A stretch of DNA of 64,000 nt from Chromatiaceae bacterium (GCA_027078745.1 JALWWO010000010.1:62001-126000), one strand, 5' to 3'. Counted from the first letter of the stretch, positions 18,676 to 61,000 are shown. Notes: generated by a model not told the origin, from the sequence alone. Program-made: numbers and translations.

Positions 18676-19358
18676 CCGAAAGGGGAACCAGTCCATAGAA
18701 GCGTTGTAAACGTGTCAGGCGGAGGCAATCCCCGGTACAGGCGCGCGTTGGGCCAGACCTGGACAGAACCTCCGGTCCACCAGAAAGAGAAATCCCCATA
18801 GCGTTGAAAAGCCAACTCCTCTGCGAGGAGGCTGGGCCCCATCGCTGCATCCTCTGGTTTGGAAAATCGCAGTATCAGTGTGTCGGATTCCTGCGGCTCA
18901 TAGGCGATTGGATGAGTCGGGGCAAGCATCGGTGGCCCGAGATCGCGCAGACGATCCTGCAAAGCATCGGCAGGCAGGGTTTCCTCTAGGGCCTGCAGGA
19001 GCAGGGATTCCAGCTGCTGAAACCAAGAGATTTGGGCGGCGATCTGAAAGAGACTCTGTTGTTCCGAGATGCCGAGAGCCGCTGTCAGGGGAAAATAGCG
19101 GCCTACCCGATCCACGCTCGGCAGCAGCACCCCGACCCAAGCGGATTTCCCGCAGAGCCCTGGCCGCAGGCAAAAGCGCCAGAGAGGTGCAGTGAGGTAA
19201 CAGTCCAGCCAATTCTGCTCCCTCAATTGATCCTGACTCGCCGCGATGCCTGCCTGCAACCATTGATCCCAGGGCACAGTAAAGCTCAGGGGCAGATCCC
19301 GACGCAGGAAATCCCCGTGGCTGGGAAGTTTGCCGAAGAAGCCAAGGGTATTCATCAC
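18672..19358 (-). CDS. tagF: T6SS-associated protein TagF
   Basis: A 228-residue cytoplasmic protein of the TagF family, a post-translational repressor of T6SS assembly in Pseudomonas. The signature N-terminus GFFGKLPSHGDFLRRDLP is present, then WLDCYLTAPLWRFCL and GVLLPSVDRVGRYFPLT. Length is typical for stand-alone TagF (in some species it is fused to PppA, which is the next gene here). The ATG overlaps the tssM stop. Its place between tssM and pppA supports a shared regulatory module with the FHA protein TagH. Confidence 0.92.
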   Translation of the reverse strand: MMNTLGFFGKLPSHGDFLRRDLPLSFTVPWDQWLQAGIAASQDQLREQNWLDCYLTAPLWRFCLRPGLCGKSAWVGVLLPSVDRVGRYFPLTAALGISEQQSLFQIAAQISWFQQLESLLLQALEETLPADALQDRLRDLGPPMLAPTHPIAYEPQESDTLILRFSKPEDAAMGPSLLAEELAFQRYGDFSFWWTGGSVQVWPNARLYRGLPPPDTFTTLLWTGSPFG

Positions 19359-22300: not shown

Positions 22301-22858
22301 AGTGTCCAGCAGCACCGCTTCATCGGAGATCCACCAGTCGCAATTGCGGGTGCCCCCGACTCCCTGAAAGGACTGCTGGCCCAAGCGATCTGCTAGGGGA
22401 AAATCGAGGCCGGCGTTCGCCAAGGCGGTGGTCTTGCCGCAGCCCGGGGGACCGATGATGAGATACCAGGGCAGTTCGTAGAGACTCGCCGCCTTGCGTC
22501 CCTTCTCCCGAGGGCGGCGCAACAGTTCGACCGCCTGTTCAAATCGTTCCCTCAGGATTTCCTGCTCTTCGGAAACTGCGTCCGCCGGTTGTTCCTTCTC
22601 CTCGGCGGGGATGGCAGCGAGATCCGAAATCATTTGCTGTTCCTTCCGCCGAGTGCGCCAGAGCTGAAACAACAGGACCAGCAACCAGCAGACCAGGACC
22701 AGCAGAATGGCGGCGATCCGAGCGGAAACGGAGGCGAGCACCGGTTGATCGGCGATGGCGATCAGGGGGCCCAAAAGCCAGATGATCAGGGCGAGAGCAC
22801 CGAGACCCAGGGCAGAGAGGAACCAACGGTTGCGAAAGAAACGTAAGAGGTTGCGCAC
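19355..22858 (-). CDS. tssM: T6SS membrane complex protein TssM (IcmF/VasK)
   Basis: A 1167-residue inner-membrane protein, the central pillar of the T6SS membrane complex, linking cytoplasmic TssK to the outer membrane. Two N-terminal TM helices (about 13-35 and 45-67), a cytoplasmic GTPase-like domain with Walker A GPPGCGKT (residues 136-143), a third TM around 445-468 (YALIALTTLLFALAWAASY), and a large periplasmic domain follow. The C-terminal part has the conserved RFGGQELRF and WPGPNPSG stretches. Translation starts at GTG, immediately after the tssL TAA stop. Length is normal for the family. Confidence 0.95.
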   Translation of the reverse strand: MRNLLRFFRNRWFLSALGLGALALIIWLLGPLIAIADQPVLASVSARIAAILLVLVCWLLVLLFQLWRTRRKEQQMISDLAAIPAEEKEQPADAVSEEQEILRERFEQAVELLRRPREKGRKAASLYELPWYLIIGPPGCGKTTALANAGLDFPLADRLGQQSFQGVGGTRNCDWWISDEAVLLDTAGRYTTQDSEAAVDQAAWFSFLDLLKKYRRRQPLNGVILAFSIADLLTLDEEGLARHCRAIRKRLQELLQRIGISLPVYLLFTKADLLAGFLEFFEDLGREERQQVWGATFPLFREPPDYAARFAPEFELLLQRLYGRRNDRLIAERDPQRRALILGFPQQFAALQDPLERFLRGIFQGSRFEQPVRLRGVYFSSGTQEGTPIDRILGNLAESLGQDRRSVLAGSRGKSYFLGDLLRRVIFQEQALAGSDRRAERLRAWMQWGAYALIALTTLLFALAWAASYANNRALLTELASQLQRYETLIAENKISSALAYEEILPRLDALRGMLDQVQPSQSTDLSMRLGLYRGEEIQAQVRGAYVRALNALLVPGLASQLEERLAHSLEDPSQSYELLKRYLMLAEPEHLEKESLLVWAKADWKQRYPNSAIPARLSRHLAYLLEQDLEPIAPNRLLVRAVREQLEQQPLAELVYGRLKLVPAVREAAPLTIQDIAGRNAETVFDLRDPKSLEIPALFTYRGFYQLFQPQSLQLIQRARKESWVYGKPTPVIAGQFEDLEESVLDLYIDEYILRWDNLLSQLNLRAFTTVREATEKVAQLIRPDSPLKRVLDTLNTNTKLARLPKGTGAIGKIALEDLRRKNPYLSRLIGEAQRSGELDSTSFPPKRVEYHFAPLTRLVDGSGSVSLEDIQRLLSDLYSQLSAIEPESGFSENPFRERDIFQRLRTEAARSPDPVRRWLRQVAANAQAVALGDAGERINGIYQSSVRPLCYRLSKGRYPFSRSRREISVYDFGRLFAKEGLLDSFFQEQLAPYVDTSRHPWRWRKKAKQSLGFSDQSLATFEQAQAIQQAFFPEGGKLPDLRFSLIPRRLDPASKTLIIRFGGQELRFITDQPAPVDGRWPGPNPSGFLTLEVTDREGQSYETRRTGQWAFYRMVNPGRLRPGADRFRTRIRVGEFSHSFEVRAFSVLNPFGLQDLTGFRCPDQL

Positions 22859-24199
22859 TTAGAGGGATTCCCGTTCGTAGACGATGATTTCCACTCGCCG
22901 ATTGCGGGCGCGATGAGCCTTGGTATCGTTGGGTACCAGGGGTTCTGTATCTGCCCGACCTTCCGGAATCATGCGCTTGGGATCGCGCATATATTTGGCC
23001 AGCTCATTCATCACATTGCGGGCGCGGGCTAGGGACAGTTCCCAATTGGAAGGGAACGACAACGTGCGGATGGGCACATTGTCGCTGTGCCCCACCACCA
23101 ACACCCGGCCTTCCACCTGATCGATGGCCTTGGCGATGCGCTCCAAGATCGGGAGGAAGCGCGGGGCGATCTTGGCGCTACCAGATCGAAACAGGGTGTC
23201 GGAATTGAAGCGGATGAGAGAGGTTAATCCCTCTTGCTGCACATGCAACAGGCCGAGCTCGATCTCCGGTTGCAAGAGTTCCTGAAGATGGAGCTTGGAA
23301 ACCGGTTCCGGCGGGAGGGGCGGCGGTGATTCTTCTGACGGCAATGTTTCCTGCACCAGATTGCTGGTCAGAATAGGAAGGCGCTGTCGTTCAAGCCGAG
23401 AGAGCTTGGCGAAGACTGGATCCGCCGCTTGGCTCAGGGCGATGAAGAAGCCGAGATAGAGGCTCGCGAGCAGCGCAGTTGCGAGCGCTGCCAACACCCA
23501 CAGGGGCAGATAGCTGGTGATGCGGCGGGCGCCGCTTTCCACCCCGCGCCAATGGGGGGAGAGGCTGCGCTCCGGTGCTCCCCGCTGGGCCCGCAGGACG
23601 CGGAACAAATCATCGATGACCTCCGCCAAGCGCGCTTGCCCCCGATCCAGTACATGATATTTCCCTTCAAAACCCAGCACCAGACAGGCGAAGAGGAGTT
23701 CCAGCAGGAAGAGATTGCGTCCGGGCTGTTGCTTCGCCCGATCCAAGATGGCGAAGAATCGATCCCCACCCCAGGTCTCGTTGAATAAAGTGCTCAACAG
23801 ACTTTCTTTCCGCCATGGGCTCTGCTCACCCCAGGGGGTATTCAACACCGCCTCATCCACAAAGGTGCAGAGGGCATAGCGGGCGTCCGGCAATAAGGCA
23901 GCCGCTGATTCCCCCGCCCGCCGAACCTGCTGATCGAAGGCGGCTAGGTCTTTCAGGAACTGGGCGCGCAGGCCATAGATATCTTCCCAAGTGGCGGTGT
24001 TGCGGATCCGAGTAGCCCGGAAGAGCAGGGGTAACGCCGCTTCCACCAGAGGATTCCAGCGGTTTAGCTGCACAGGCAACGGCGCTACCGGGGCTTCCGG
24101 TGTGGAAGCCCGCAGGTTGCGGAGATCCTCGGCCTCACCCGAGCGGGGGCGGAATCCCGGTCGGGGACGGATCAGGGTTTTGTCTAGGTCGTCGGACAT
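22859..24199 (-). CDS. tssL: T6SS protein TssL (DotU) with C-terminal OmpA domain
   Basis: A 446-residue evolved TssL: DotU-type cytoplasmic domain (about 45-230), one TM helix (WVLAALATALLASLYLGFFI), and an OmpA-like peptidoglycan-binding domain at the C-terminus. The latter shows LFRSGSAKIAPRFLPIL, VVGHSDNVPIRT and RARNRRVEII. The protein joins TssM and TssJ in the membrane complex; the fused OmpA domain anchors the complex to the cell wall without a separate TagL. The ATG at 24199 has GAGGTG at a good distance and is preferred over an in-frame ATG 18 codons earlier that would overlap tssK. Confidence 0.94.
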   Translation of the reverse strand: MSDDLDKTLIRPRPGFRPRSGEAEDLRNLRASTPEAPVAPLPVQLNRWNPLVEAALPLLFRATRIRNTATWEDIYGLRAQFLKDLAAFDQQVRRAGESAAALLPDARYALCTFVDEAVLNTPWGEQSPWRKESLLSTLFNETWGGDRFFAILDRAKQQPGRNLFLLELLFACLVLGFEGKYHVLDRGQARLAEVIDDLFRVLRAQRGAPERSLSPHWRGVESGARRITSYLPLWVLAALATALLASLYLGFFIALSQAADPVFAKLSRLERQRLPILTSNLVQETLPSEESPPPLPPEPVSKLHLQELLQPEIELGLLHVQQEGLTSLIRFNSDTLFRSGSAKIAPRFLPILERIAKAIDQVEGRVLVVGHSDNVPIRTLSFPSNWELSLARARNVMNELAKYMRDPKRMIPEGRADTEPLVPNDTKAHRARNRRVEIIVYERESL

Positions 24200-24206
24200 G
24201 AGCACC

Positions 24207-25535
24207 TCATTCCCGAATCGCCCAAAATTCCATCTGCATGCCTGGAAATTCACCGCTCACATGGATAGCGAATCCGCCGGAATGATGCAGTTGTTTCCAG
24301 TATTCGCTGCTGCGGTCGAGCTCAAAGTAGACGGAACCGCTTCGGAAAGGCAGCTGGCGGGGCGCCACGGGCAGGGGGCGAAGTAAGATGCCGGGAAGCG
24401 CCAAATTCACCAAATCTCGGATCTTTTCCACCGGTCCAATCTTGACCTGGGTGGGAAAGATTCGGCGCAGCTCTTCCACAGACATGTCCGCGCGCACCAC
24501 CAGAATAAAGCTGGCATCCACCAAGAGCTTGCGATCGAAGACCGCCGCCACCCGTACCCCATACTTGCGTTCCTGCAGGGGGATGGGGATGGCGTTGCGA
24601 TCCAACACCATGCTGAGGGAGTGGCGCAAGCTGCGCAGGACAGGCTCGAAGCTGGCCTGTAAATTCTCGTGATCATAGGGAGGAAAGGTTCCTGGGCGCT
24701 TCTCCGGCATGAAGGTGGATAATTCTCCCGCCATCGCCAAAAAACTGCGGAACAAGACTTCCGGATGGAGTTGGGGCAGTTCCCGATAATGGGTCATGAG
24801 GGGTAAAAACCGGTTCACCACCTGGAGCAGCAGGAAATCCGAGAGCTCTGCATTGCCCCCTCGCCCTGCTTCCGCTACGCGATCGGCGAGGGCTTCGCTG
24901 CGATGGCGCAGCAGCCGCGTCATTTCTTCCAGATAGCCTTGTAGCTTAGGCGCAGCTTGACACTGTATCACTGTGGGCACAAAGGCATCATCCAGCACGA
25001 TTTCCCGATTGCTCCGGCTTTCGAGCACGCGCGCTATGGGAATGCAGCTGTATTCCCCCCGATCCTCTTCTTCGCTGAGGAGGCGCAGATTCAATCCGGA
25101 CACTTGAAGGGTCGCGGTGCCGCCGTCCGGTCTGCTGATGTCTCGGACTTCCACTTCTCGCGCCCGCTGCCGCGCTGGGATCAGCAGGTTGTCCTCCGCC
25201 ACCTCCGGCAGGTTCTCCCGCTGGATGGGCAACCCTAGATAGAGAGTCAGTTGATGCGCGTTTTCGGGAATGTCCAGGGCGGGAGGGGGGAAATCCTGAT
25301 CCGGCAGAGAAAAGGGGGTGCCGTCGGGAAAAATGCCTCGGGCCTGGGCCAGGGCGATCTTTCCCGCGCTCAGCTGTGCTTCGTCTAAGCGCAGCGCGGA
25401 CAGCCCCCAGCCGAATGGGGTCAGGGATTCGCAACGTCCCTGCACCCAGCGCTCCAGATGGCGCTGCTGCTGTTGAAAGTGCTGAGGCTGGAGGAACATG
25501 CCTTCCGACCAAACGACGCGACCATACCAGGACAT
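24207..25535 (-). CDS. tssK: T6SS baseplate protein TssK
   Basis: A 442-residue cytoplasmic protein linking the T6SS baseplate to the TssL/TssM membrane complex. The start MSWYGRVVWSEGMFLQPQHF is a classic TssK signature, and LPGILLRPLPVAPRQLPFR and YFELDRSSEYWKQL occur near the C-terminus. Length is standard. It follows tagH by 15 bp and precedes tssL by 7 bp in the same minus-strand arm. Confidence 0.95.
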   Translation of the reverse strand: MSWYGRVVWSEGMFLQPQHFQQQQRHLERWVQGRCESLTPFGWGLSALRLDEAQLSAGKIALAQARGIFPDGTPFSLPDQDFPPPALDIPENAHQLTLYLGLPIQRENLPEVAEDNLLIPARQRAREVEVRDISRPDGGTATLQVSGLNLRLLSEEEDRGEYSCIPIARVLESRSNREIVLDDAFVPTVIQCQAAPKLQGYLEEMTRLLRHRSEALADRVAEAGRGGNAELSDFLLLQVVNRFLPLMTHYRELPQLHPEVLFRSFLAMAGELSTFMPEKRPGTFPPYDHENLQASFEPVLRSLRHSLSMVLDRNAIPIPLQERKYGVRVAAVFDRKLLVDASFILVVRADMSVEELRRIFPTQVKIGPVEKIRDLVNLALPGILLRPLPVAPRQLPFRSGSVYFELDRSSEYWKQLHHSGGFAIHVSGEFPGMQMEFWAIRE

Positions 25536-25550
25536 AGGCGATTTCCGAAG

Positions 25551-26957
25551 CTAGGACTTCTTCTTGTGCTGGGCGAGCTGGGCTTCATAAACCCGCACGA
25601 AATGGGCTCCAAAGATACCATGAAAGTCATCCTCTGCCTTTTCCTGAATCTGTTTGTAATAGGTCTTGTAAAACGCCCAGTGGGCATCTCCGAACAGACG
25701 GCGTTTTTTCTCCGGGCTGGCCTGATAAGCCACTTCCACGGCTTCCGGGGAAAATTCCTGTAGCAACGCTTGAAAAGCGGCTTTTACACCGGCGATGAGG
25801 GCGAGCTCATGTCCTGCTAAGTCTTCAAAGGCTTCCTGAAAGGCTGCTTCCGCGTCCAAGAACCCCGGCGGCGGATCCAGGAAAAGTTGCCGGAGGGCGT
25901 GATCTGGGTCCAAGGTAAATTTCAGAGGATTGTTGTTAGCGGGTTGCACGGTGGTTTGCGCGGTGCGGAAGCCCTCTTTAATGGTGCGCCGCCCTTTGAG
26001 CAGTTCCAACGTGCCCTGCGTGATCAAGCGCAGCAACTGCCCGAGGCGGCGTAGGAATTCTTGTTGAGCTTTCGGGGAGAGTTCCCGGGGGGGCAGCCCA
26101 AGGCCTTCCCAGAAGGCCTGGAGGAGAGGGGATTCCTCTTGGGATTGAGGGGGCGCTTGGGCATCAGAACGCGATTGATCCGCCTGGGCTTTAACGGACG
26201 GAGAATGCGCTGGTGTGGGAGCTGGCGGGGGTTCTGGCGGACTGGGCATCGGTTCAGCCGCGAACGATGCGGTCACAGCAGTTGAATTTGACCCAGCCAG
26301 GGGTTCCGGTTGGTTCTCATCAACATGCAGATCTTCCCCTTCTTCGCCCCACCAATCTTCCGGCAGAATTTCTTTCACCGGAGGAGGCACAGCCGCTTCG
26401 ATGATCTGGGGTTTGGCTTCTGACGGGCGGAAGTGCTGCTGATCTGCCGCCAGATGGTCGCTTTGACTCGCACCCATGCCCGCATCGGATACACCGGGCA
26501 TCCCAGGTTCCAGCTGCGGTCCTGCGCCCGCCGGAGGTTCGTAGGGCTGGGCGATGAATTCTCCAGAGTTGGATTCCGGAGACTCAATTTGCGGTTCAGA
26601 GAGTAGGGATTCCTCCGAGACTCGTGTTGCGTCTTCTTCTAAGAGCGCGACTTGAATTTCATAGTCGCCGATGTAGAGGAGATCCCCAGGATGCAGCAGC
26701 TGACGTTCCCCCTTGGGCAGAGGAACTTCCAATTGATTGAGAAAGGTGCCGTTAGTGCTCTGATCCTCGATGAAGTATTGGCCCTGTTCATAGTGAATGC
26801 GAGCGTGATGGTTGGAGATAATGCGTTCGGGATCGGGCAGCACCCAATCGTTATCCCGTGCTCGCCCGATGCTGCCTCCGCGCAGGCGGAATAAAGCTTG
26901 GGCGTCCGATCCGAGACTAGGCGCTTGGGCGCTGGAGATCCTGAGTTGTAAATACAT
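25551..26957 (-). CDS. tagH: T6SS FHA-domain protein TagH (Fha)
   Basis: A 468-residue protein with an N-terminal FHA domain (about 1-100; GRARDNDWVLPDPERIISNHHA and QSTNGTFLNQ in shortened form: ISNHHARI, DQSTNGTFLN) that binds phosphothreonine. A Pro/Glu-rich linker of roughly 150 residues follows, then the C-terminal T6SS-FHA helical domain (about 280-468; LGQLLRLITQGTLELLKGR, NNNPLKF). In Pseudomonas the FHA protein is phosphorylated by PpkA and dephosphorylated by PppA to trigger assembly. It is the first gene of the minus-strand arm; a 14-bp tandem repeat lies directly before its start. Confidence 0.92.
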   Translation of the reverse strand: MYLQLRISSAQAPSLGSDAQALFRLRGGSIGRARDNDWVLPDPERIISNHHARIHYEQGQYFIEDQSTNGTFLNQLEVPLPKGERQLLHPGDLLYIGDYEIQVALLEEDATRVSEESLLSEPQIESPESNSGEFIAQPYEPPAGAGPQLEPGMPGVSDAGMGASQSDHLAADQQHFRPSEAKPQIIEAAVPPPVKEILPEDWWGEEGEDLHVDENQPEPLAGSNSTAVTASFAAEPMPSPPEPPPAPTPAHSPSVKAQADQSRSDAQAPPQSQEESPLLQAFWEGLGLPPRELSPKAQQEFLRRLGQLLRLITQGTLELLKGRRTIKEGFRTAQTTVQPANNNPLKFTLDPDHALRQLFLDPPPGFLDAEAAFQEAFEDLAGHELALIAGVKAAFQALLQEFSPEAVEVAYQASPEKKRRLFGDAHWAFYKTYYKQIQEKAEDDFHGIFGAHFVRVYEAQLAQHKKKS

Positions 26958-26959
26958 TG

Positions 26960-26987
26960 TTTTGAAGTCTCAGTTTTGAAGTCTCAG
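26960..26987. repeat. 14-bp perfect tandem duplication in the T6SS divergent promoter region
   Basis: TTTTGAAGTCTCAG occurs twice back to back (26960-26973, 26974-26987). It begins 2 bases before the tagH ATG, so it occupies the tagH leader in the 110-bp divergent region between tagH and tssA. No strong Shine-Dalgarno is seen for tagH in it. Confidence 0.9.
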
Positions 26988-27067
26988 AAGAATCATCTTG
27001 TAGTTTTGCAACCTTCTAGTAAGCTTAAAAGGATTCAACCTCTCTTCTCTTGCGATGGAATCGAGGC

Positions 27068-28108
27068 ATGCAGCCCATCGACGTGGAAGCCTTGGCCAAG
27101 CCCATCTCTGCCGAAGAACCGAGCGGTCCAGACCTAGAATATGATCCCGATTTCATGGCGCTGGAAGAGGCGGCGCGCACGGAGCCGGAACAGCAATTTG
27201 GAAACACCATCATAGCGGCGCGGGAACCGGACTGGCCTAAGGTACGAGATTTAGCCTGTACGGTCCTCAGCCGCAGCAAGGATCTTCGGGCTGCGCTCTA
27301 CCTCGTGCAAGCCCTCACCCAGGGGAACGGGCTTTCAGGACTTGCCCAGGGGTTGCAGCTCTTTCATCGCCTGCTGAGCAATTATTGGGATTCCCTGCAT
27401 CCCCAGCTAGATCCCGAAGATGACCTAGATCCCACAGAACGGGTGAATCTCGTGGCTTCCCTCTGCGATGCGGAGCGCATTCTCACGCCGGTTCGCCACG
27501 CACCCATGGTGCAGATTCCCGGGCTCGGTGGCATTGCTTGGCGGGATGTGCTCGTAGCCCGGGGACAGTGGCCGCCAGAGGAAGAAGAGGAAGTTCTCAA
27601 GCTCGATTCCATCGAAGCTGCCATCCGAGATTTGGAGCCCGCGCAGGTGCAAGCTGCTCAAGAGACCCTGGCCAGTGCCCTGACCAGCCTTAGCGCCATC
27701 GAGCAGGAGTTATTAGAACGGGTAGGTGTGGGCCACGCAGTGAGTTTGGAAGCCCTCAGCACCTTGCTGCGGGAGATTCAGGCTTTCTTGGGGGAACAGC
27801 TGCAAGGGCAGGATGCGGTTTCCGAATCCCCGCTGGAAGAATCGGAGGCTGAAGAAGCGCGGGAACCGGCAATATCCCATCCGCAATCCGGTGCTCCCGG
27901 CGAAATTCGCTCGCCACAAGACGTGGTGCAAGCCTTGGATCGTGTCATCGCCTATTATCGGAAGCATGAACCCACTAGCCCAGTGCCCCTGCTTTTAGAA
28001 CGGGCTAAACGGTTGGTTTTCGCCAATTTCTTAGAGATCCTCCGAGATCTCGCACCGGATGCCCTACCCCAGGCGGAACAGATCACCGGCACCCGATTAG
28101 AAGAGTAG
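27068..28108 (+). CDS. tssA: T6SS protein TssA (ImpA N-terminal family)
   Basis: A 346-residue TssA, which caps and guides sheath/tube assembly from the baseplate. The ImpA_N signature is visible from the start: MQPIDVEALAKPISAEEPSG and DLEYDPDFMALEEAAR, and later GNGLSGLAQGLQLFHRLL and NYWDSLHPQLD. The C-terminal part with RVIAYYRKHEPTSPVPLLLE is typical of short TssA proteins. ATG 27068 matches the family start better than the in-frame ATG at 27050. It heads the plus-strand arm, 21 bp upstream of tssB. Confidence 0.92.
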   Translation: MQPIDVEALAKPISAEEPSGPDLEYDPDFMALEEAARTEPEQQFGNTIIAAREPDWPKVRDLACTVLSRSKDLRAALYLVQALTQGNGLSGLAQGLQLFHRLLSNYWDSLHPQLDPEDDLDPTERVNLVASLCDAERILTPVRHAPMVQIPGLGGIAWRDVLVARGQWPPEEEEEVLKLDSIEAAIRDLEPAQVQAAQETLASALTSLSAIEQELLERVGVGHAVSLEALSTLLREIQAFLGEQLQGQDAVSESPLEESEAEEAREPAISHPQSGAPGEIRSPQDVVQALDRVIAYYRKHEPTSPVPLLLERAKRLVFANFLEILRDLAPDALPQAEQITGTRLEE

Positions 28109-28129
28109 CGCAAGCATCAGGAAATCCCA

Positions 28130-28660
28130 ATGGCTCGAGAAAGCAGTCAGAAATTCATCGCCCGCAACCGCGCCCCGCGGGTGCAGATCGAATACGATGT
28201 GGAAGTCTATGGTTCGGAGAAGAAGGTCCAGCTTCCCTTTGTCATGGGGGTCATGGCGGATCTTTCGGGCAAGCCCAAAGAACCCCTGCCCCCGGTGGCA
28301 GATCGCAAGTTCTTGGAAATCGATCTCGATAACTTCGATGACCGCCTCAAGGCTATGAAGCCTCGGGTGGCCTTTTCCGTGCCCAATGTGCTCTCGGGGG
28401 AGGGCAATCTCAGCGTGGATCTCACCTTCGAAAGCATGGATGATTTTTCTCCGGCAGCGGTGGCGAAGAAGGTGGACGCCCTGCGGGTCTTATTGGAGGC
28501 GAGAACCCAGTTGAGCAATCTGCTCACCTATATGGATGGCAAGACCGGCGCGGAGGAGCGCATCGCGGAGCTCTTGAACAATCCGGCGCTGTTGCAGTCC
28601 TTGGCTTCCGCCCCTAAGCCCCAAACAACCTCTCAATCTCCTGCTGAGGATAAGGATTAA
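28130..28660 (+). CDS. tssB: T6SS contractile sheath small subunit TssB
   Basis: A 176-residue sheath protein (VipA/HsiB) that pairs with TssC. Signatures: SQKFIARNRAPRVQIEYDVE near the start, LPFVMGVMADLSG, and KFLEIDLDNFDDRLKAMKPR. The C-terminal segment is short and polar, as usual. It lies 13 bp before tssC. Confidence 0.96.
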   Translation: MARESSQKFIARNRAPRVQIEYDVEVYGSEKKVQLPFVMGVMADLSGKPKEPLPPVADRKFLEIDLDNFDDRLKAMKPRVAFSVPNVLSGEGNLSVDLTFESMDDFSPAAVAKKVDALRVLLEARTQLSNLLTYMDGKTGAEERIAELLNNPALLQSLASAPKPQTTSQSPAEDKD

Positions 28661-28673
28661 AGGAGTCTAACCC

Positions 28674-30179
28674 ATGGCTGAGCACGAACAGCAAACGCAA
28701 GCCGCCCCAATCGCGGAGGAAGTTCAGGCTGCGCCCTCTGAGTTCAGCGCTCTGCTCGCCAAAGATTTCCGGCCCAAGACCCAGGAAGCCCGGGAAGCGG
28801 TGGAAGAAGCGGTCCGCACCCTGGCGCAACAGGCCTTGGAACATACAGCACTCCTCTCTTCAGATGTGCTGGACACCATCGAGCGCTTGATCGCAGAGAT
28901 CGACCGCAAGCTGAGCGATCAGCTCAACCAGATCATGCATCATCCGGATTTCCAACAGCTGGAAAGCGCGTGGCGAGGGTTGCATTATCTGGTTTCTAAT
29001 ACAGAAACCGATGAGATGCTCAAGATCCGGGTCATGAACATTTCTAAAAAGGAGTTGCATAAGACCCTGAAGAAGTACAAGGGGACGGCCTGGGATCAAA
29101 GCCCGCTCTTCAAAAAGATCTATGAAGAGGAATACGGTCAGTTCGGCGGCGAGCCTTATGGCTGCTTGGTGGGAGACTATTACTTCGATCATTCCCCGCC
29201 GGACATCGATCTCTTGCGGGGAATCGCTAAGATCTGCGCTGCCTCTCACTGTCCTTTCATCGCGGGCGCTTCCCCCACCGTCATGCAGATGGAAAGCTGG
29301 CAGGAGCTGAGCAATCCCCGGGATCTCACCAAGATCTTCACCACAGCGGAATACGCCGCCTGGCGCTCCCTGCGGGAATCTGAAGATGCCCGCTACATCG
29401 GTTTGACCATGCCCCGCTTCCTCGCGCGCCTGCCCTATGGGGCTAAGACGGATCCGGTGGATGAGTTCGACTTTGAGGAGGACACGGCGGGGGCGGATAG
29501 CAGCAAATATGTTTGGGCGAACTCCGCCTATGCCATGGCGGTGAACATCAATCGGTCTTTCAAGCTGTACGGCTGGTGCAGCCGCATTCGAGGCATCGAA
29601 TCCGGCGGTGCGGTGGAGGATCTCCCCACCCATACCTTCCCCACGGATGATGGGGGTGTGGATATGAAATGCCCCACAGAGATCGCCATCAGCGATCGGC
29701 GGGAAGGGGAGTTGGCGAAAAATGGATTCATTCCCTTAGTGCATAAAAAGAACACGGATTTCGCCGCCTTTATCAGCGCTCAATCCCTACAGAAACCCAT
29801 GGAATATGAAGATCCGGATGCGACCGCCAATGCAAACCTCGCGGCCCGTCTCCCCTATCTGTTTGCTACCTGCCGCTTCGCCCATTACCTCAAGTGCATC
29901 GTGCGGGACAAGATCGGTTCCTTCAAGGAGAGAGAGGACATGGAGCGGTGGTTGAACGATTGGATCATTGAGTATGTGGACGGTGATCCCAAGCATTCCA
30001 CCGAGGAGACCAAAGCGAGGAAGCCCTTGGCGGCAGCGGAAGTGCAAGTGGAAGAGGTGGAGGGGAACCCAGGCTATTACACCTCGAAGTTCTTCCTCCG
30101 GCCTCATTACCAGCTGGAGGGCTTAACCGTATCCCTGCGGCTCGTTTCCAAGCTGCCCTCCGTGAAGGCAGGGGGCTGA
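28674..30179 (+). CDS. tssC: T6SS contractile sheath large subunit TssC
   Basis: A 501-residue sheath protein (VipB/HsiC). Signatures are IDRKLSDQLNQIMHHPDFQQ, ESAWRGLHYLVSNTE, PFIAGASPTVMQM and the C-terminal NPGYYTSKFFLRPHYQLEG. With TssB it polymerises into the contractile tail. The length is normal and no frameshift is seen. A small hairpin and then hcp follow within 55 bases. Confidence 0.97.
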   Translation: MAEHEQQTQAAPIAEEVQAAPSEFSALLAKDFRPKTQEAREAVEEAVRTLAQQALEHTALLSSDVLDTIERLIAEIDRKLSDQLNQIMHHPDFQQLESAWRGLHYLVSNTETDEMLKIRVMNISKKELHKTLKKYKGTAWDQSPLFKKIYEEEYGQFGGEPYGCLVGDYYFDHSPPDIDLLRGIAKICAASHCPFIAGASPTVMQMESWQELSNPRDLTKIFTTAEYAAWRSLRESEDARYIGLTMPRFLARLPYGAKTDPVDEFDFEEDTAGADSSKYVWANSAYAMAVNINRSFKLYGWCSRIRGIESGGAVEDLPTHTFPTDDGGVDMKCPTEIAISDRREGELAKNGFIPLVHKKNTDFAAFISAQSLQKPMEYEDPDATANANLAARLPYLFATCRFAHYLKCIVRDKIGSFKEREDMERWLNDWIIEYVDGDPKHSTEETKARKPLAAAEVQVEEVEGNPGYYTSKFFLRPHYQLEGLTVSLRLVSKLPSVKAGG

Positions 30180-30185
30180 GGCAAC

Positions 30186-30201
30186 CGCAGCCTAGACTGC
30201 G
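30186..30201 (+). other. Small hairpin between tssC and hcp
   Basis: CGCAG and CTGCG form a 5-bp stem around a 6-base loop just after the tssC stop. There is no T-run, so it is more likely an RNA processing or stability element than a terminator; it could help raise hcp mRNA relative to tssB/C (inference). Confidence 0.35.
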
Positions 30202-30234
30202 ACAGTGTGTTTACTCAATCGAGAGGATCCCATC

Positions 30235-30714
30235 ATGGCAGTTGATTTCTTTCTCAAACTCGGTGACATCGAAGGCGAATCCAAGGACAGCACCTATGAA
30301 GGTTGGATCGAAGTGCTGGGTTGGAGCTGGGGGATGTCTCAATCCGGCACCATGCACACGGGCACCGGTGGCGGCACAGGCAAAGTGAGCGTGCAGGACT
30401 TCAGCGTCACCAAATATGTGGACAAGTCCACCCCCAACATCATGCAGAAATGTTGTACCGGCAAGCACTATGACAAAGTGATCTTCATCGCTCGGAAGGC
30501 GGGGGATAAGCCTCTCGAATATGTGAAGCTGACCATGGAGGAAGTCATCGTCACTTCTGCGAACACCGGCGGTGGCGTGGGAGAAGAACAGGTCACGGAA
30601 AACATCACCCTTAACTTCGCTCGCTACAAATACGAGTACACTCCGCAAACCGCATCGGGTGCAAAGGGTGGCACCATCACCCAGACCTTCGACATCCGCC
30701 GCAACACGGAATAA
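30235..30714 (+). CDS. hcp: Hcp, T6SS inner tube protein (TssD)
   Basis: A 159-residue Hcp, which forms hexameric rings of the T6SS tube and is secreted. It begins MAVDFFLKLGDIEGESKDST, with GWIEVLGWSWGMSQSGTMH and HYDKVIFIARKAGDKPLEY further in. The ATG at 30235 has GAGAGGAT at a good distance; an in-frame ATG 10 codons earlier is not supported. No VgrG or PAAR gene follows. Confidence 0.96.
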   Translation: MAVDFFLKLGDIEGESKDSTYEGWIEVLGWSWGMSQSGTMHTGTGGGTGKVSVQDFSVTKYVDKSTPNIMQKCCTGKHYDKVIFIARKAGDKPLEYVKLTMEEVIVTSANTGGGVGEEQVTENITLNFARYKYEYTPQTASGAKGGTITQTFDIRRNTE

Positions 30715-44574: not shown

Positions 44575-44814
44575 ATGCGCAGATCCCGTTTTCTGTTGAT
44601 CGCCTGGTCCTTGGGTAGTTCGCTCGTGCTATTGAGCCTGTTTGCATCGCCGCCCTCGGTGCCTAAGCACAACTTGCCCCTGACCGATCTGGCTCTCTTC
44701 ACGGAAGCCGCTTATACCCGGCATCGGAGCCTGGCCACCCCCCAGAGCGCCTTCACGGAATTCCCCTTGGGCCTGGATCTCTTTCCCTCTGGCTCCCTGG
44801 TGCCGCCCCCATGA
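44575..44814 (+). CDS. Small exported or membrane-anchored protein of an ABC operon
   Basis: A 79-residue protein I do not recognise. Residues 5-26 form a single hydrophobic signal or anchor (FLLIAWSLGSSLVLLSLFA), and the rest is periplasmic, with TDLALFTEAAYTRHRSL and a Pro-rich end (PSGSLVPPP). Its stop overlaps the ATG of the FtsX-like permease by 4 bases, which strongly suggests a working gene coupled to the ABC transporter. Could be a substrate- or permease-associated subunit; that is inference. Confidence 0.65.
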   Translation: MRRSRFLLIAWSLGSSLVLLSLFASPPSVPKHNLPLTDLALFTEAAYTRHRSLATPQSAFTEFPLGLDLFPSGSLVPPP

Positions 44815-45944
44815 GGGTGTTTCTGCGGCGGCAACGCTACCTGCTGGAATACAGCCTCGCTTCCCTCGCGCGGCATCCCGGGAAATATGTCCTGCTCCTG
44901 TTGGTCTACAGCTTGTTAGTCTTTCTGTTGGCCTCCGTCTTGCTCTTTTCCCAAGCCCTGCACCGAGAGACCGAAGTGCTCCTAGCCGATGCGCCGGAAA
45001 TCCTGGTGCAACGGTTGCTCGCCGGTCGGCCGGTGCCCGTGCCCGCCGCCTATCTGGAACGCCTCCAGGGCATCCGAGGGATTCGGGAACCATCGGGCCG
45101 GCTCTGGGGCCTGTTCTACGATCCCATCGTGCGGGCAAACTACACGATGCTAGTGCCTCAAACCCCGGAGATTCCCGCCGGCGAGATCCAGATTGGCCGG
45201 GGGATCGCCCGCAGCCGAGGGCTGGAAGTGGGGGATTATCTCAGCCTGCGGAACGCTTCGGGAGCAACCCAAGCTTGGCGGGTCGCCGCTCTGCTGGACG
45301 GCGAGGCGGAGTTGGTGAATCAGGATCTCATCCTGATGAACACGGCGGATTTCCGGCAGTTCTTCGGCTATCCTGAGGGCAGGTTTACTGATCTCGTCCT
45401 GCGGGTGCCCAACGAACGGGAGCAAGCCACCATCGCGGAAAAGATCGTGCGAATCCTGCCGGACACGCGCCCCATTCTCCGTTCGGAACTGCTGCGCACC
45501 TATAGCGCCCTGTTCTCCTGGCGGCAGGGCTTGATCTTCTTGATCCTGTTGGGGGTGCTGCTCGCCTTCGTCATCCTCGCCTGGGATCGAGCTTCCGGGC
45601 TGAGCAGTGAGGAACGACGGGAAATCGGCTTGCTCAAGGCCTTGGGCTGGGAGACCAGCGATCTATTGCGCATGAAATTTTGGGAAGGTGCGGTGCTCTC
45701 CCTGAGCGCCTTTCTGCTGGGCGATCTGCTAGCCTATGCCCATGTTTTCTTCTTCGGGGCCGGCCTGTTCGCGCCGGTACTTCAAGGCTGGGCAGTCCTC
45801 TATCCCCAGTTCCATCCCAAGCCCTTCATCGATGGCTTTCAGATCGCCACCCTCTTTTTCTTCACTGTCTTTCCCTACACGGTGGCGACGATTGTGCCCA
45901 TCTGGCGGGCCGCCATCGCCGATCCCGACGAGATCATGCGATGA
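44811..45944 (+). CDS. FtsX-like ABC transporter permease
   Basis: A 377-residue MacB/LolC-type permease. One TM helix near the N-terminus (YVLLLLVYSLLVFLLASVLLF), an extracytoplasmic domain of about 190 residues, then three TM helices from about 236 (LIFLILLGVLLAFVILAW; GAVLSLSAFLLGDLLAYA; FFTVFPYTVATIVPI). The RREIGLLKALGWETSDLLRMKF coupling segment typical of FtsX-like proteins is present. Its start overlaps the small protein stop and its stop overlaps the ATPase ATG, both in ATGA form, giving a three-gene unit. Confidence 0.92.
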   Translation: MRVFLRRQRYLLEYSLASLARHPGKYVLLLLVYSLLVFLLASVLLFSQALHRETEVLLADAPEILVQRLLAGRPVPVPAAYLERLQGIRGIREPSGRLWGLFYDPIVRANYTMLVPQTPEIPAGEIQIGRGIARSRGLEVGDYLSLRNASGATQAWRVAALLDGEAELVNQDLILMNTADFRQFFGYPEGRFTDLVLRVPNEREQATIAEKIVRILPDTRPILRSELLRTYSALFSWRQGLIFLILLGVLLAFVILAWDRASGLSSEERREIGLLKALGWETSDLLRMKFWEGAVLSLSAFLLGDLLAYAHVFFFGAGLFAPVLQGWAVLYPQFHPKPFIDGFQIATLFFFTVFPYTVATIVPIWRAAIADPDEIMR

Positions 45945-46621
45945 TCCGCTTGGAAAACGTTTGCAAGCTGTACAATCAGGGCCAGCACAATGAGGTGCGG
46001 GCGATTTGGGAGCTGAGCTTGCAGTTGGCGCCGAATCAAATCACTGTGTTCCGCGGTCCAAGCGGTTCGGGCAAGAGCACCCTGCTCGCCCTGATCGGTT
46101 GCTTGACTCGCCCCACTCGGGGGCGGATCTGGCTGGAAGGGGAACTGCTCTCCAATCTGCCGGAACGCTTCATGACCCAAGTGCGGCGGGAAACCTTCGG
46201 ATTCATCTTCCAACGGTTTAACCTCATCCGCGGGATGACGGTTTTGGAGAACCTCCTGGTGCCCGCCTATCCCCTCGCCCCCCCCTATTCACGACTGCGC
46301 GCCCGCGCCATGGAACTGTTGCATCAGTTCCGCTTGGCAGATCGGGCCCACAACAAGGCGGAATGGCTGTCCGGCGGCGAAGCCCAGCGCACCGCTATTT
46401 GCCGCGCCCTGATAAACGATCCCAAAATCCTCATCGCCGATGAGCCCACCGCCAATCTGGATCGCCAGCTCTCTCGGGAATTCATGGGCTACCTGGAAGG
46501 ACTTCAGGCAGAGGGAAAAACCGTGCTCATCAGCTCCCATGACCCCCTGGTCTTCGAGCGTCCGGGCATCGCTCGCATCGTCGCACTCTGCGATGGGCGG
46601 TTGTGTTTGAAGGAAGAATAA
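45941..46621 (+). CDS. ABC transporter ATP-binding protein (LolD/MacB type)
   Basis: A 226-residue ATPase. Walker A is GPSGSGKSTLLALIG, the signature is LSGGEAQRTAICRAL and Walker B is ILIADEPTANLD; the H-loop is ISSHDPLV. It partners the FtsX-like permease directly upstream. Such type VII ABC machines usually perform mechanotransmission or extrude from the outer leaflet; the cargo is unknown. No TolC or adaptor gene is adjacent. Confidence 0.94.
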   Translation: MIRLENVCKLYNQGQHNEVRAIWELSLQLAPNQITVFRGPSGSGKSTLLALIGCLTRPTRGRIWLEGELLSNLPERFMTQVRRETFGFIFQRFNLIRGMTVLENLLVPAYPLAPPYSRLRARAMELLHQFRLADRAHNKAEWLSGGEAQRTAICRALINDPKILIADEPTANLDRQLSREFMGYLEGLQAEGKTVLISSHDPLVFERPGIARIVALCDGRLCLKEE

Positions 46622-46989: not shown

Positions 46990-47974
<985 letters not shown>

Positions 47975-56482: not shown

Positions 56483-56965
56483 TCAGCCCTGATCCAGCTT
56501 TTTCAGGAGATCGGGTTGGACCTCGTCGAAGCGCAGGATCCGCTTGCCCCCGTGATCTTGGAGAAAGGCCTTGGCATCCGCTTCGCTCTTCAGGGGGATG
56601 AGCTCATGGCCCATGGGCCCGAGCACATCGGAACCCACCACATACCAGGCTTCCTGAGCCGGAATCCAACGCAATCCATAGTATTCCTTGACGGCGATTT
56701 GTTGAATCTCCTCCCGCCGGTGTCCGGGTGCCCATTTGGGCAGATCCAGCAGATACTTGAACAGATCTTTGGCCCCGTCGAAATAGGCCCGATGGCCATC
56801 TTTATAGACCACAGCCGCGACCCATTGGGGATATTTCGCCACGAACATGCCGCACACCGGGCAGGTGTCCCGAGGACCGGGCTCGGGAATGCTGAAATCG
56901 CTGCCCCAACTGGACAGCGCTGGCAAGAGTAAGAGGAGGAAAAACCAGTTTTGTACTCTGTGCAT
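56483..56965 (-). CDS. NosL-family periplasmic protein
   Basis: A 160-residue exported NosL-type protein (nitrous oxide reductase accessory; binds Cu(I) in NosL of denitrifiers). Residues 1-20 are a signal peptide without the lipobox Cys of classic NosL, so it is probably soluble or cleaved. The motif TCPVCGMFVAKYPQWVAAVVYK and the later FDGAKDLFKYLLD are diagnostic. A TTG upstream in frame is not used; GGAG precedes the ATG at 56965. It is last in the five-gene minus-strand cassette and ends 4 bp from convergent gspF. Confidence 0.88.
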   Translation of the reverse strand: MHRVQNWFFLLLLLPALSSWGSDFSIPEPGPRDTCPVCGMFVAKYPQWVAAVVYKDGHRAYFDGAKDLFKYLLDLPKWAPGHRREEIQQIAVKEYYGLRWIPAQEAWYVVGSDVLGPMGHELIPLKSEADAKAFLQDHGGKRILRFDEVQPDLLKKLDQG

Positions 56966-57014
56966 CCTGAGGAACTCCAAGGGTTTTGGGCCGGCACCGA
57001 CCCGAGTTGATGGT

Positions 57015-57680
57015 TCAGCCTTTTTGCATCCGCTGTCGCCGTTCCGCCCGACGCTTGCGGATCATGCGGGTATCCCGCGCCATGTCGAGATAGGTCTGTT
57101 GCAGGGCTTCCTCGAAATCTCCCAGCTTGCCCCCCTGCTTTTCTTGGGTGGCTGCTGCCAGGGCGCGATCGCCGAAGGCCCGCTTGCTGTTTGCAGTCAT
57201 GGTGCCCCGCAGCTTGCTGCCGATGAGGTAGATGGCCTTTTCCACGGGGATCAGGGGTTTGATGGACTGGGTTGCGCCGGAATCCGCTGCATAGATAGCT
57301 TTGGGGCCCCGATCTAGGTTCAACATCAGGCTGATGGCCAGGCAGTGGATGGAGCAGGTGCCATCCACCAGATCATCTTCATAATGGACCAGATGGCGGG
57401 AATGGTGCCATTGGGTTCGGCTCATGCCGCAGTAGGGGCACCGCGGGTATTTCTCCAATTCTCGTTGCAGGGGTGCCGGGTCCGGCGGGGTCTTGGGAAT
57501 GAACTGCAAGGGCGTGCCGTCGCCTTCACAGCGTTCGCCAGCTTCTACCCAACCCTTCCCGGGTACCAGCGCCCCGATGCTGCTCGCATCGGCCAACAGG
57601 GGCACCGTGGCCGCTGTCAGTCCTAGGGTGCCGAATCCCTTCAGCAGGGTTCTGCGCTTGGGATCGTGATCGCTACACAT
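57015..57680 (-). CDS. Second NosL-family protein with Tat-type signal
   Basis: A 221-residue protein. The N-terminus KRRTLLKGFGTLGLTAATVP is a probable twin-arginine signal. The NosL-like metal motif is RCPYCGMSRTQWHHSRH, followed by GTCSIHCLAISL, both rich in possible copper ligands. A basic C-terminal tail (RMIRKRRAERRQRMQKG) is unusual. Export via Tat suggests a cofactor- or metal-loaded protein. It lies 49 bp before the other NosL gene and 24 bp after the TauE/SafE-like gene. Confidence 0.83.
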   Translation of the reverse strand: MCSDHDPKRRTLLKGFGTLGLTAATVPLLADASSIGALVPGKGWVEAGERCEGDGTPLQFIPKTPPDPAPLQRELEKYPRCPYCGMSRTQWHHSRHLVHYEDDLVDGTCSIHCLAISLMLNLDRGPKAIYAADSGATQSIKPLIPVEKAIYLIGSKLRGTMTANSKRAFGDRALAAATQEKQGGKLGDFEEALQQTYLDMARDTRMIRKRRAERRQRMQKG

Positions 57681-57704
57681 CGCATTGACTCCACAGTTTG
57701 AGGA

Positions 57705-58325
57705 TCATCCGTTGGCAAGCCCCCGCATGATCTGGAAGAAGGTCCAACCTTCGTACAGGGTCCAAAGACCCAGAAAGAGCACCAGCACCCCCCCGAATCG
57801 GGCGCCGGCGCGGTTCATCGCATAACCGAGTCGGGCGCTGCCCAGGCTCAGCAAAGCCATGAGCAGGGTGCCCAGTCCGAAGGCACCCATGAGCAGGGCG
57901 GCTTTCAGGGGATCGGCACTGGACGCCGCGCGGATCCCCACGGAAAACACCAGGCTACAGGGCATCAATCCGTTGAGCATTCCGGCGGCGGCTGCCGTCC
58001 GAACGCGGGCGGGACAGCCCTGCTTGGGCCGAAGGATTCCATCCAAACCCAAGCCCGAGATCCAGAGACCAGCCCCCATCATGAGCAGGCCTTGCCCCTT
58101 GCCCAACAGACCGGTCTGCACCAGCACTCGCCCGGCCAAAGCGCCCAGGGTGCCCAAGAGCACATAGGTGCCGATCCGCGCGCCGTGATAGGCCAGCACT
58201 GATCTGAACCCTGCCCCGCGATGCAGAAAGAAGCCACCGGCGAGACCGCTGCACATGCCCAAGCAATGGGGAATCCCGAGCAGACCGGTGATGAAGGCTA
58301 AGCCCAGGGTGAATTCCCCGTTCAC
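57705..58325 (-). CDS. TauE/SafE-like (UreH-domain) membrane protein
   Basis: A 206-residue protein with about six TM helices. The Cys/His signature GIPHCLGMCSG in the first helix and GLMPCSLVFSVGI in the middle are typical of the sulfite exporter TauE/SafE or DsbD-like family often found in copper-oxidase maturation loci. It may transport metal or reducing equivalents; the substrate is not known. It overlaps the TlpA-like gene by 4 bases and lies 24 bp before the Tat NosL gene. Confidence 0.84.
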   Translation of the reverse strand: MNGEFTLGLAFITGLLGIPHCLGMCSGLAGGFFLHRGAGFRSVLAYHGARIGTYVLLGTLGALAGRVLVQTGLLGKGQGLLMMGAGLWISGLGLDGILRPKQGCPARVRTAAAAGMLNGLMPCSLVFSVGIRAASSADPLKAALLMGAFGLGTLLMALLSLGSARLGYAMNRAGARFGGVLVLFLGLWTLYEGWTFFQIMRGLANG

Positions 58326-58810
58326 AAAAGATCTTCCACCAGTTTCCGAAAGAGCGTCGGGCTGGATTCTCCCAAGACCTTGGTGGCCACGCGGCCTTGC
58401 CGGTCGATGAGCACTGTGGTGGGCAAGCCGATGACCCCGTAGGCCTGGGCCACCTGGCCCGATGGATCCAAGAGCACGGGATAAGAAATCCCCAAGCGAT
58501 CCACAAAGCGCTGGGCCTTCGCCCGATCCTGGCGCACATTGATGGCGAGGATTTCCAACCCCTTCGGCCCGTGGCTCTGATAGATCGGCTCGATCTCTTG
58601 CATCTCCGTCTTACAAAAGGGGCACCAGTCCGCCCAGAACCTTAGGGCGACCACTTTTCCCGAGAGATCTGTTGGAAAATCGAGGGTTTCCCCGGACAGA
58701 TTCTGGAGCTGAAAGGCGGGCGCCAGCTGACCGGGGGTCAGTTGCGGACTTTTCTCACCGCAGGCGCTGAGGAGCAAGCTGACTAAGAAAAAAAGGCGGA
58801 ACCACCGCAT
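58322..58810 (-). CDS. TlpA-like lipoprotein thioredoxin
   Basis: A 162-residue periplasmic thiol-disulfide protein with a lipoprotein signal (LLLSAC, Cys17) and a thioredoxin domain with the active site WADWCPFCKTEM and the cis-Pro GVIGLPTTVLID. The family reduces CuA-binding or haem-ligand cysteines in cytochrome oxidase or N2O reductase maturation. It is 0 bp after the 8-TM gene (adjacent ends) and overlaps the TauE/SafE-like gene by 4 bases. Confidence 0.9.
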   Translation of the reverse strand: MRWFRLFFLVSLLLSACGEKSPQLTPGQLAPAFQLQNLSGETLDFPTDLSGKVVALRFWADWCPFCKTEMQEIEPIYQSHGPKGLEILAINVRQDRAKAQRFVDRLGISYPVLLDPSGQVAQAYGVIGLPTTVLIDRQGRVATKVLGESSPTLFRKLVEDLL

Positions 58811-59806
58811 CTATAGCAGCACCAGATGAGAATGAAATATGGCATAGGCGGATAAACCGTAGAAAACGCCGAATCCCGCCAGGGCAATCCCCGCGAGAAA
58901 ACGGCTTTCCCTGGGCACGACCTCCGCCAGGCTCGGCACGTTGCGCCAGCGATGAACTAAGCTCGCTGCCAGGGCGAAGCTGAGGCCGAGGAACCAGGAC
59001 AGATAAAACCCATAACCGATGTAATGATACTCGGATTGTAACAGGCAGAAGGGGCAATGGTGATGCGGATTCTCATAGACCCAGAGGGCGATGCTGGACA
59101 CCAGGACAGCTAATGCGATGGCCCCCGCAGCCCCGGCGGACAGGGAGAAATAGCCCGCACCGCGTCCTTTCCACAGAAAATAGCTGCCGGTGGCGAACAG
59201 GAGCAGGCCGCTGATGCCCAGGGCGATCAGGCTGAGACCGGGATCTAGGCTGGATACCTGGGCGGCGACCCCCCGCCCCGCCGGCGTGAACAGAGTGCCG
59301 CAACAGGAAGTGATGAGATCGGGATGCAACCCCTGGAAAAACCGCCATTGGCTCAGGGTCTCCCAGAGGGAGAAGGGGAAGATCATCGCCAAAAAGGCGT
59401 ATTTCACGCGGATCAGGGGATAATCCTTGGCCTGGTTATCCAACCGGTTGAGCAACAGCCAGATGGCCCCCAGCAGGGAGACCAGCAGTTTTAAGAACAA
59501 AGTTTGCCAACCGCCGGGCGCCGCGTTGAGCACACCGGTAGCGCACATGGCGCCCACGAACTGGGGGGCCAGCTGGTCTGCGTTATAGATAAACAGCAGC
59601 AACCCGAGGATTTCACTGAAGAAACACCAGGTGACCAAGGTAGCGATGAGATAGGTGCGGCGCTCTAAGCGGAGCTGTAATGCACTGCCGCTGCGGAGAT
59701 CCCAATGCCGCAGAATTTGAATGCCGAATCCGGTGGCCAGCGCCAGCAGGGCGCTGAGGGTGAAGGAAAGACCGTTGAGCGCCAATACTGCCGGTGCCAT
59801 CCCCAT
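58811..59806 (-). CDS. 8-TM membrane protein with HHHCPFC motif (unrecognised)
   Basis: A 331-residue integral membrane protein I do not recognise. About eight TM segments (near 8-30, 52-74, 101-121, 134-152, 190-212, 222-245, 262-286, 302-322). Between segments 6 and 7 is ENPHHHCPFCLLQSEYHY (His248-250, Cys251, Cys254, His261), and the loop before segment 5 has ITSCCGTLF (Cys168-169). This density of Cys/His facing one side suggests metal binding or thiol chemistry. It is the first gene of the cassette with the TlpA-, TauE/SafE- and NosL-type genes, so a copper-handling role is plausible. Confidence 0.75.
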   Translation of the reverse strand: MGMAPAVLALNGLSFTLSALLALATGFGIQILRHWDLRSGSALQLRLERRTYLIATLVTWCFFSEILGLLLFIYNADQLAPQFVGAMCATGVLNAAPGGWQTLFLKLLVSLLGAIWLLLNRLDNQAKDYPLIRVKYAFLAMIFPFSLWETLSQWRFFQGLHPDLITSCCGTLFTPAGRGVAAQVSSLDPGLSLIALGISGLLLFATGSYFLWKGRGAGYFSLSAGAAGAIALAVLVSSIALWVYENPHHHCPFCLLQSEYHYIGYGFYLSWFLGLSFALAASLVHRWRNVPSLAEVVPRESRFLAGIALAGFGVFYGLSAYAIFHSHLVLL

Positions 59807-59822: not shown

Positions 59823-61000
59823 CTAAGCTTCTCTTTTCCTAGTGTACCGGATCGCTTCCATTCTTTGAGTGGAGTTGCTCAGTCTGCTTGGACAGTGGAG
59901 AGAATGTATCGCTGCACAGAATTTTGAACAATCTACGATTCCCTGTCCTTCGTGGTTCGAACGATCAGCGAAGTAGGCATAATGCTTCCCACCGACCAAG
60001 CTTGCTATCGGAGAAAAGAAATCTAGAAAGGCATCTTCTTGGAAAATTTCGATTACTATGGGCTATTTGAAAAAATTAAATTAGTAAATCCAGTCCCGTG
60101 CGGGCCGACAATAATTTGCGCTTGATGAAAGAGATAGATTTGATCGTCCAACAAAAGATTGCCTAATATAACTGTAGAAACCCAGTTTCTCTAATGCATC
60201 TGCAACTTCCTCTTCATTAAAAATTCGGTTCCTTTTTTGCTCTCAGCTCTACTGATAAATAAGCGACGTGGTACATTTTTTTGGTTGGGGCTATATTCGG
60301 GAATGTTCTTTCCCGTAACCACTGTATGGTTGAGGGTGCAGGCGGCATAGTTCCCGATGGTTTATGCTATGAGGGGATATATAGCGTATCTACCGGAAGA
60401 TGTTCTTCCGAATATTCCTCATAGGAGCCCTTATGATAGCCGAGAAGTTCTAAATAACGCTTCTGCCATGCTGCAAGCCCAGCCGGCAGAAGCAGCGTTG
60501 GTCTTTTAGTAATGGATTCATAACTGCGGATACAGGGAAGGCAATCTGTAACCCAATGATAATAATTGAATGGAACGGATTGCTGAGGGGGAAAAATTCG
60601 CCATTCCGCCTTTGTGGAATGGTAAAAAGCTATTAAACAGAATATGAAATGGCTTGAGGGTCTTTTGGCGGCTAAGCATAGTGAACTCTGTCCCATGGGT
60701 GTGCTCTGTAATGATCCTCCTATTCCTCGTAACAGGCGTTGCTCGGCAACCCAACAGACGGCAATCACGGATAGCATATAACTTGATCTTTGGCCACCAG
60801 GGGGTTTGATGAGTTGAAATATCTCCCTTACGATTAAGGAACCTGCTTGGGGTTAAAGAAGAGCATTCCCGATCTTGAATCTCTTTTACAAACGATCTAT
60901 CCGGGAGTTCACCCCTTTCTATGGTAAGGACTTTGCCAAGTAAGACCTTCAACTTGTGTCGGTACCTAAGTATTTTCTTAATTGTATTGATTATACACAT
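59823..61000 (-). pseudogene. Decayed family 61 glycosyltransferase
   Basis: Reading the minus strand in shifting frames gives an almost complete GT61-type protein. Pieces in order: MCIINTIKKILRYRHKLKVL and AIRDCRLLGCRATPVTRN (from 61000); FNYYHWVTDCLPCIRSYE and LLLPAGLAAWQKRYLELLGY (to about 60400); an in-frame TAG at 60367-60369; PSGTMPPAPSTIQWLRERTF; RRLFISRAES (about 60242-60268); RNRIFNEEEVADALEKLGFY (about 60175-60235); DDQIYLFHQAQIIVGPHGTG and FTNLIFSNS (about 60060-60155); then IVIEIFQEDAFLDFFSPIAS and GGKHYAYFADRSN. At least four frameshifts and one stop break it; two shifts fall at A-runs (60274-60280, 60234-60239). The region is AT-rich, unlike its neighbours. Confidence 0.85.

Follow-up and report, generated by a model that had tools for sequence, protein, structure and literature searches.

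A candidate eight-gene module for periplasmic copper delivery, with paired NosL proteins and a LolC-type ABC transporter, in a Chromatiaceae bacterium

A 64,000-nucleotide stretch from a Chromatiaceae bacterium (GCA_027078745.1, JALWWO010000010.1:62001-126000; here the window) carries a cassette of five genes (56483-59806) coding for an eight-transmembrane (8-TM) protein, a TlpA-like lipoprotein, a DsbD_2 membrane protein and two NosL proteins. Three further genes, 12 kb away and on the opposite strand (44,575-46,621), code for a small membrane protein and for the permease and ATPase of an ATP-binding cassette (ABC) transporter. On balance, we favour reading the two groups as a single eight-gene module, driven by ATP and thiols, for delivery of Cu(I) in the periplasm. 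The original prediction, made from the sequence of the window, had taken the cassette for a candidate copper-delivery unit of five genes. As a unit the cassette is incomplete, the ABC transporter being absent from it and encoded at its own site in the window.

The evidence joining the two groups comes from other genomes. A scan of GTDB for relatives of the 8-TM protein gave at least 556 confirmed relatives, the best 80 of which were kept for analysis. Of the 75 loci having enough upstream sequence, 73 carry genes for the permease and ATPase close to the 8-TM gene, and 68 carry that for the small protein. The usual order is small single-TM protein, 377-residue FtsX/MacB-type permease, 225-residue ABC ATPase and then the 8-TM gene. 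Where both flanks could be read (47 loci), NosL is present in 41, two NosLs in 38, TlpA in 36 and DsbD_2 in 23. In a sample of 369 genomes from the class of our bacterium, covering only a few cuproenzyme families, the 8-TM protein occurs in 11, our own and ten others (41-51% identity), and the permease occurs in the identical 11 (hypergeometric probability 3e-21, uncorrected for phylogeny). NosL was present in all 36 other searched genomes with the 8-TM gene, even when not adjoining it. Dozens of genomes share these genes in one and the same order, so the arrangement is not due to chance. Searching our own genome with the permease of the relatives located its orthologue in the window; given the linkage of permease and 8-TM protein in the relatives, what the window holds is therefore a single system of eight genes in rearranged form. 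No plasmid-borne relatives were found, and within 10 kb neither a neighbour beyond the cluster nor any single enzyme was constant. We note that one locus (L017:10180-12732) has two tandem 412-residue open reading frames between the 8-TM and TlpA genes; they share identical first 40 residues, are transposase-like by eye and apparently interrupt the operon.

All five open reading frames of the cassette are present on the minus strand where they had been predicted. The 8-TM protein (58811-59806) belongs to an unnamed family, as judged from its sequence, an AlphaFold2 model and an alignment of relatives. Next comes a TlpA/ResA-like thiol-disulfide oxidoreductase (58322-58810) with lipobox LLSAC and active site WCPFC; it scores 98 bits in Pfam (AhpC-TSA/Redoxin) and is nearest to ResA in NCBIfam, with a score under the cut-off of that model. 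The third gene (57705-58325, GTG start), annotated as TauE/SafE-like, codes for a DsbD_2 membrane protein (Pfam, 85 bits) with PHCLGMC and MPC motifs. The last two products are NosL proteins, scoring 116 and 48 bits against a PF05573 gathering score of 24 bits. One (57015-57680) has a twin-arginine (Tat) signal and the motifs CPYCGM and CSIHC; the other (56483-56965) has a Sec signal, lacks a lipobox and carries CPVCGM. KRRTLLK as the Tat motif, the lipobox of TlpA and a Sec signal can all be read in the cassette sequence. For the Sec-type NosL, which is the last gene, the ATG at 56965 is the better start. The tight packing described earlier was confirmed: the 8-TM and TlpA genes abut, those for TlpA and DsbD_2 overlap by 4 bp, and gaps of 24 bp and 34-49 bp follow, a spacing as in an operon. 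The cysteine motifs are also as described, except that CLGMC of DsbD_2 and CSIHC of NosL are of CxxxC and not CxxC type. Directly upstream of the 8-TM gene there is an AT-rich island (60000-61000; GC 0.42, compared with about 0.60 in the surrounding sequence); no intact gene in it is convincing. The only RNA element found near the module was a tRNA.

The assignment of the two NosL proteins is supported by solved structures, since both are homologous to 7og7, 7osf, 7znq and 2hpu. The Sec-type protein aligns to solved NosL, including chains of the copper-binding lipoprotein NosL; the Tat-type protein is a more distant homologue. In the alignments of relatives, C40, C43, M45 and M123 of the Sec-type protein (numbered from the TTG start at 56980) and C81, C84, M86 and M161 of the Tat-type protein are invariant. 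The CXM motif and a second conserved methionine are the likely Cu(I) ligands of NosL (PMC6530538). The lipid-anchored N-terminal cysteine that is a feature of NosL from nos operons is absent from both cassette proteins. Across the relatives a lipobox pattern occurs in 1 of 58 Sec-type sequences, and the twin-arginine pattern in 50 of 53 sequences of the other type. One locus (L025:11470-13071) has an unusually long NosL-like open reading frame (around 530 residues), suggesting fusion of NosL with another domain.

The 8-TM protein could not be assigned to a known family. The window protein has no accepted Pfam match and no NCBIfam match, its 80 relatives have no consistent Pfam match, and the family profile matched no chain in the PDB. 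The AlphaFold2 model built from 81 sequences (predicted local distance difference test 91.6, predicted template modelling (TM) score 0.88) shows eight long helices, as had been read from the sequence. A Foldseek search of the PDB with this model found nothing (best E 0.04, TM score about 0.2), leaving the protein with no known fold in the PDB. C88, C168, C169, H249, C251 and C254 are invariant in all 81 sequences and H250 is conserved in 80; no other cysteine of the family is conserved, and the methionine preceding C88 is also invariant. By helix counting, the conserved Cys and His residues all sit on one face of the membrane, where the loops are poor in Lys and Arg; of the four loops on the other side, two are rich in these residues. 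The conserved Cys and His residues are thus predicted, from loop charge and the positive-inside rule, to be periplasmic.

The ABC transporter half lies on the plus strand. It starts with a 79-residue single-TM protein with a conserved periplasmic tail (44575-44814), identified from its sequence and a profile of relatives, for which no Pfam family was matched. The permease, 377 residues long (44811-45944), is of type VII (LolC/MacB/FtsX-like): it is 59% identical to the permease of one relative (L018), in which the FtsX domain is found, and its model matches the folds of LolCDE, MacB, HrtBA and BceAB. Its ATPase partner (45941-46621, 226 residues) was assigned from gene calls and a profile, and its L018 relative carries ABC_tran. 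Neighbouring genes in this trio overlap by 4 bp. The half adjoins a tRNA-Thr gene (46990-47065). In nearly all relatives this ABC half stands immediately before the 8-TM gene.

We compared the module with four known systems. With LolCDE, MacB and BceAB (type VII ABC) it shares the permease fold and the FtsX domain, but its partners are others and nothing suggests a lipoprotein or peptide cargo. TlpA/Sco/PCuAC assembly of cytochrome oxidase likewise places a TlpA-like reductase beside a copper chaperone; in the module, no Sco or PCuAC was recognised, NosL is the chaperone and an ABC transporter is added. NosDFYL resembles it in combining the NosL chaperone with an ABC permease/ATPase pair in periplasmic copper insertion. 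Here, in contrast, a LolC/MacB-type permease takes the place of NosY, NosD is missing, there are two non-lipidated NosLs together with the 8-TM, TlpA and DsbD_2 proteins, and the module often occurs in genomes without nosZ. The fourth system, FetABCDEF, the accessory of FetMP in iron uptake, also has an 8-TM protein, an FtsX-type permease, an ATPase and thioredoxin-like lipoproteins (PMC10783030), and a complete FetMP-FetABCDEF-like cluster from a genome of the same class (L114:3522-11178) was used for comparison. The module permease is detectably related to FetC, its profile scoring 50 bits against FetC of L114, whereas two MacB-like permeases from our own genome score 17-20 bits; the ATPase is no closer to FetD than to the controls. 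Such parallels would suit a Fet-like system for another metal or for thiol redox chemistry, in which NosL domains have been repurposed. We hold this to be very unlikely. The module has one permease rather than two and NosL in place of FetM and FetP, and neither FetM (an FTR1 permease), FetP (a P19 protein) nor a DUF2318 gene belongs to the cluster or its conserved neighbours. Some loci have copper-related neighbours. Its 8-TM protein lacks the DUF2318 and YHS domains, DUF2318 (PF10080) has no match in our genome, and alignment of the 8-TM profile with FetA of L114 (hhalign) found no homology, so that FetA was rejected as a homologue. In its working the module is like NosDFYL and in its organisation like FetABCDEF, and it is a member of neither. 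No paper on such a cluster was found in the open-access literature, subscription papers and preprints lying outside the search.

The original prediction had argued that the cassette could serve a different enzyme, since the window has neither nosZ nor an oxidase gene. These genes are indeed missing from the window, but the genome (2.18 Mb in 24 contigs, judged 97% complete) carries both. Contig C19 (L016:5140-15268) has a clade II (Sec-dependent) nosZ, scoring 870 bits against an NCBIfam cut-off of 625, in an operon with NosD, a third NosL, an ABC ATPase at the nosF position and a 275-residue protein at the nosY position, the latter two probably being nosF and nosY. A cbb3 oxidase is encoded on contig C6 (CcoN above cut-off, further genes read as ccoOQP and ccoGHIS), and a COX1-family gene beside a small c-type cytochrome on contig C2 reads as norCB by candidate assignment. 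The genome gave no match for a multicopper oxidase. Because the genome has nosZ, its lack in the window is no evidence here, and that argument was dropped. Linkage of nosZ and nosDFY to the cassette nosL genes was likewise not found; the nos operon, with a NosL of its own, lies elsewhere, which speaks against a full nos operon making direct use of the cassette genes.

The module might then be an auxiliary factor for nitrous oxide reductase, acting for example on its CuA site beside NosDFYL. The nosZ of our own genome would fit, as would its enrichment in the class sample, where nosZ is carried by 6 of the 11 genomes that have the 8-TM gene and by 52 of the 358 that do not (Fisher p 0.003). We nevertheless consider this role unlikely, since our nos operon brings its own NosL, NosD and ABC genes, the retrieved loci of relatives showed no nosZ close to the module, and 17 of the 32 genomes carrying the 8-TM gene, including the complete single-contig genome G136, have no nosZ. 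These 17 genomes rule out NosZ as sole client. They also speak for the earlier suggestion that another enzyme is served.

Heme-copper oxidases, mainly cbb3, have been weighed in the same way. CcoO is found in 10 of the 11 genomes carrying the 8-TM gene and in 216 of the 358 that lack it (p 0.056); a COX1-family gene, from a family that includes nitric oxide reductases, is found in 36 of 37 genomes with the 8-TM gene, G379 giving no match. One culturable relative, Sedimenticola selenatireducens (L079), carries nosZ together with several COX1-family genes. DsbD_2 proteins and P1B ATPases also occur in cbb3 assembly loci. The association is a weak one, as cbb3 is common in the class, and our own cbb3 operon appears to hold a complete CcoGHIS set. 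G136 carries the module without cbb3, which excludes cbb3 as sole client; that the module is an extra assembly factor for these oxidases seems to us improbable.

Other copper proteins adjoin the cluster in particular lineages. Two multicopper oxidase genes lie upstream of it in a member of the Nitrospiria (L107; 1783-6106), and multicopper oxidases occur together with CusBA near it in one of the Thermodesulfovibrionales (L108; 12055-16727) and in a deltaproteobacterium (L103; 7-2577); CusBA alone is beside it in L085. One of the multicopper oxidases in the L107/L103/L108 set carries FG-GAP repeats. In some Gamma- and Betaproteobacteria (L018, L039, L072, L102, L106) the cluster includes a P1B ATPase, and the one tested, from L018, passes heavy-metal and copper-translocating models. 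CusBA-type pumps and multicopper oxidases, both known in copper resistance, adjoining several non-gamma loci could point to periplasmic detoxification or export of copper rather than its delivery, and LolC/MacB-type ABC systems are not known to import substrates into the cytoplasm. We consider detoxification or export unlikely all the same: NosL, TlpA and DsbD_2 are proteins of a biogenesis type, and the cluster has no conserved outer-membrane partner. Two further ideas were discarded. For a link to thiocyanate dehydrogenase, a copper enzyme, no open-access paper pairing both terms was found, and a reading as a defence system gave only generic ABC ATPase matches.

Returning to Cu(I) delivery, we infer the metal, the electron path, the role of ATP and the client from the gene content and order, the co-occurrence, the conserved residues and the fold classes observed. 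The DsbD_2 protein would pass electrons from the cytoplasm to the lipoprotein TlpA, which would keep the cysteines of NosL and client reduced and copper as Cu(I). TlpA is known to reduce copper-site cysteines before metallation in the oxidase of B. japonicum (PMC7558416). The two soluble periplasmic NosL proteins would carry Cu(I), and the 8-TM protein may serve as a docking or exchange site in the membrane, with its periplasmic Cys and His residues acting on copper or thiols. ATP hydrolysis by the LolC-type ABC pair would move periplasmic domains and bring about conformational release, as in LolCDE or in NosDFY with NosL. Rather than a single fixed enzyme, the client is probably whatever cuproenzyme a given lineage carries outside the cytoplasm; here it could be the cbb3 oxidase and/or NosZ, and in some Nitrospirae and Deltaproteobacteria multicopper oxidases.

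Several points weigh against this delivery role. In this genome the cassette and the ABC genes lie apart, so the case for their joint function here rests on the relatives. No cuproenzyme was recognised within 10 kb in most loci, and copper binding by the module proteins is predicted from their sequences. In Sulfurospirillum, a member of the NosL family increases when pyruvate is fermented (PMC6242987), so not every homologue of NosL has to serve a copper enzyme. The copper role first proposed is supported by the NosL motifs, the homology to solved NosL and the copper-type neighbours of some relatives.

It is possible, as a more tentative proposal, that the module represents an undescribed and widespread class of cuproenzyme maturation system, built from a LolC/MacB engine, an 8-TM protein and paired soluble NosLs, and independent of N2O reduction. 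The engine, coupled to the 8-TM protein, would drive Cu(I) from the NosLs into the extracytoplasmic copper enzyme of each lineage. Descriptions of NosL make it a chaperone dedicated to nitrous oxide reductase, and genome annotation follows them. That a two-NosL module is widespread in genomes lacking nosZ suggests that N2O reduction should not be read from a NosL annotation. Few ways of loading copper enzymes are known, and the module would be a further one, driven by ATP. Its 8-TM protein represents an unnamed membrane family; with a structure model of high confidence and a set of invariant Cys and His residues, it is directly testable.

Elsewhere in the window, a type VI secretion-like run (17905-30714) was judged from open reading frames alone; it includes a 1167-residue IcmF-like protein, TssK/TssL-like proteins, sheath proteins and an Hcp-like protein.

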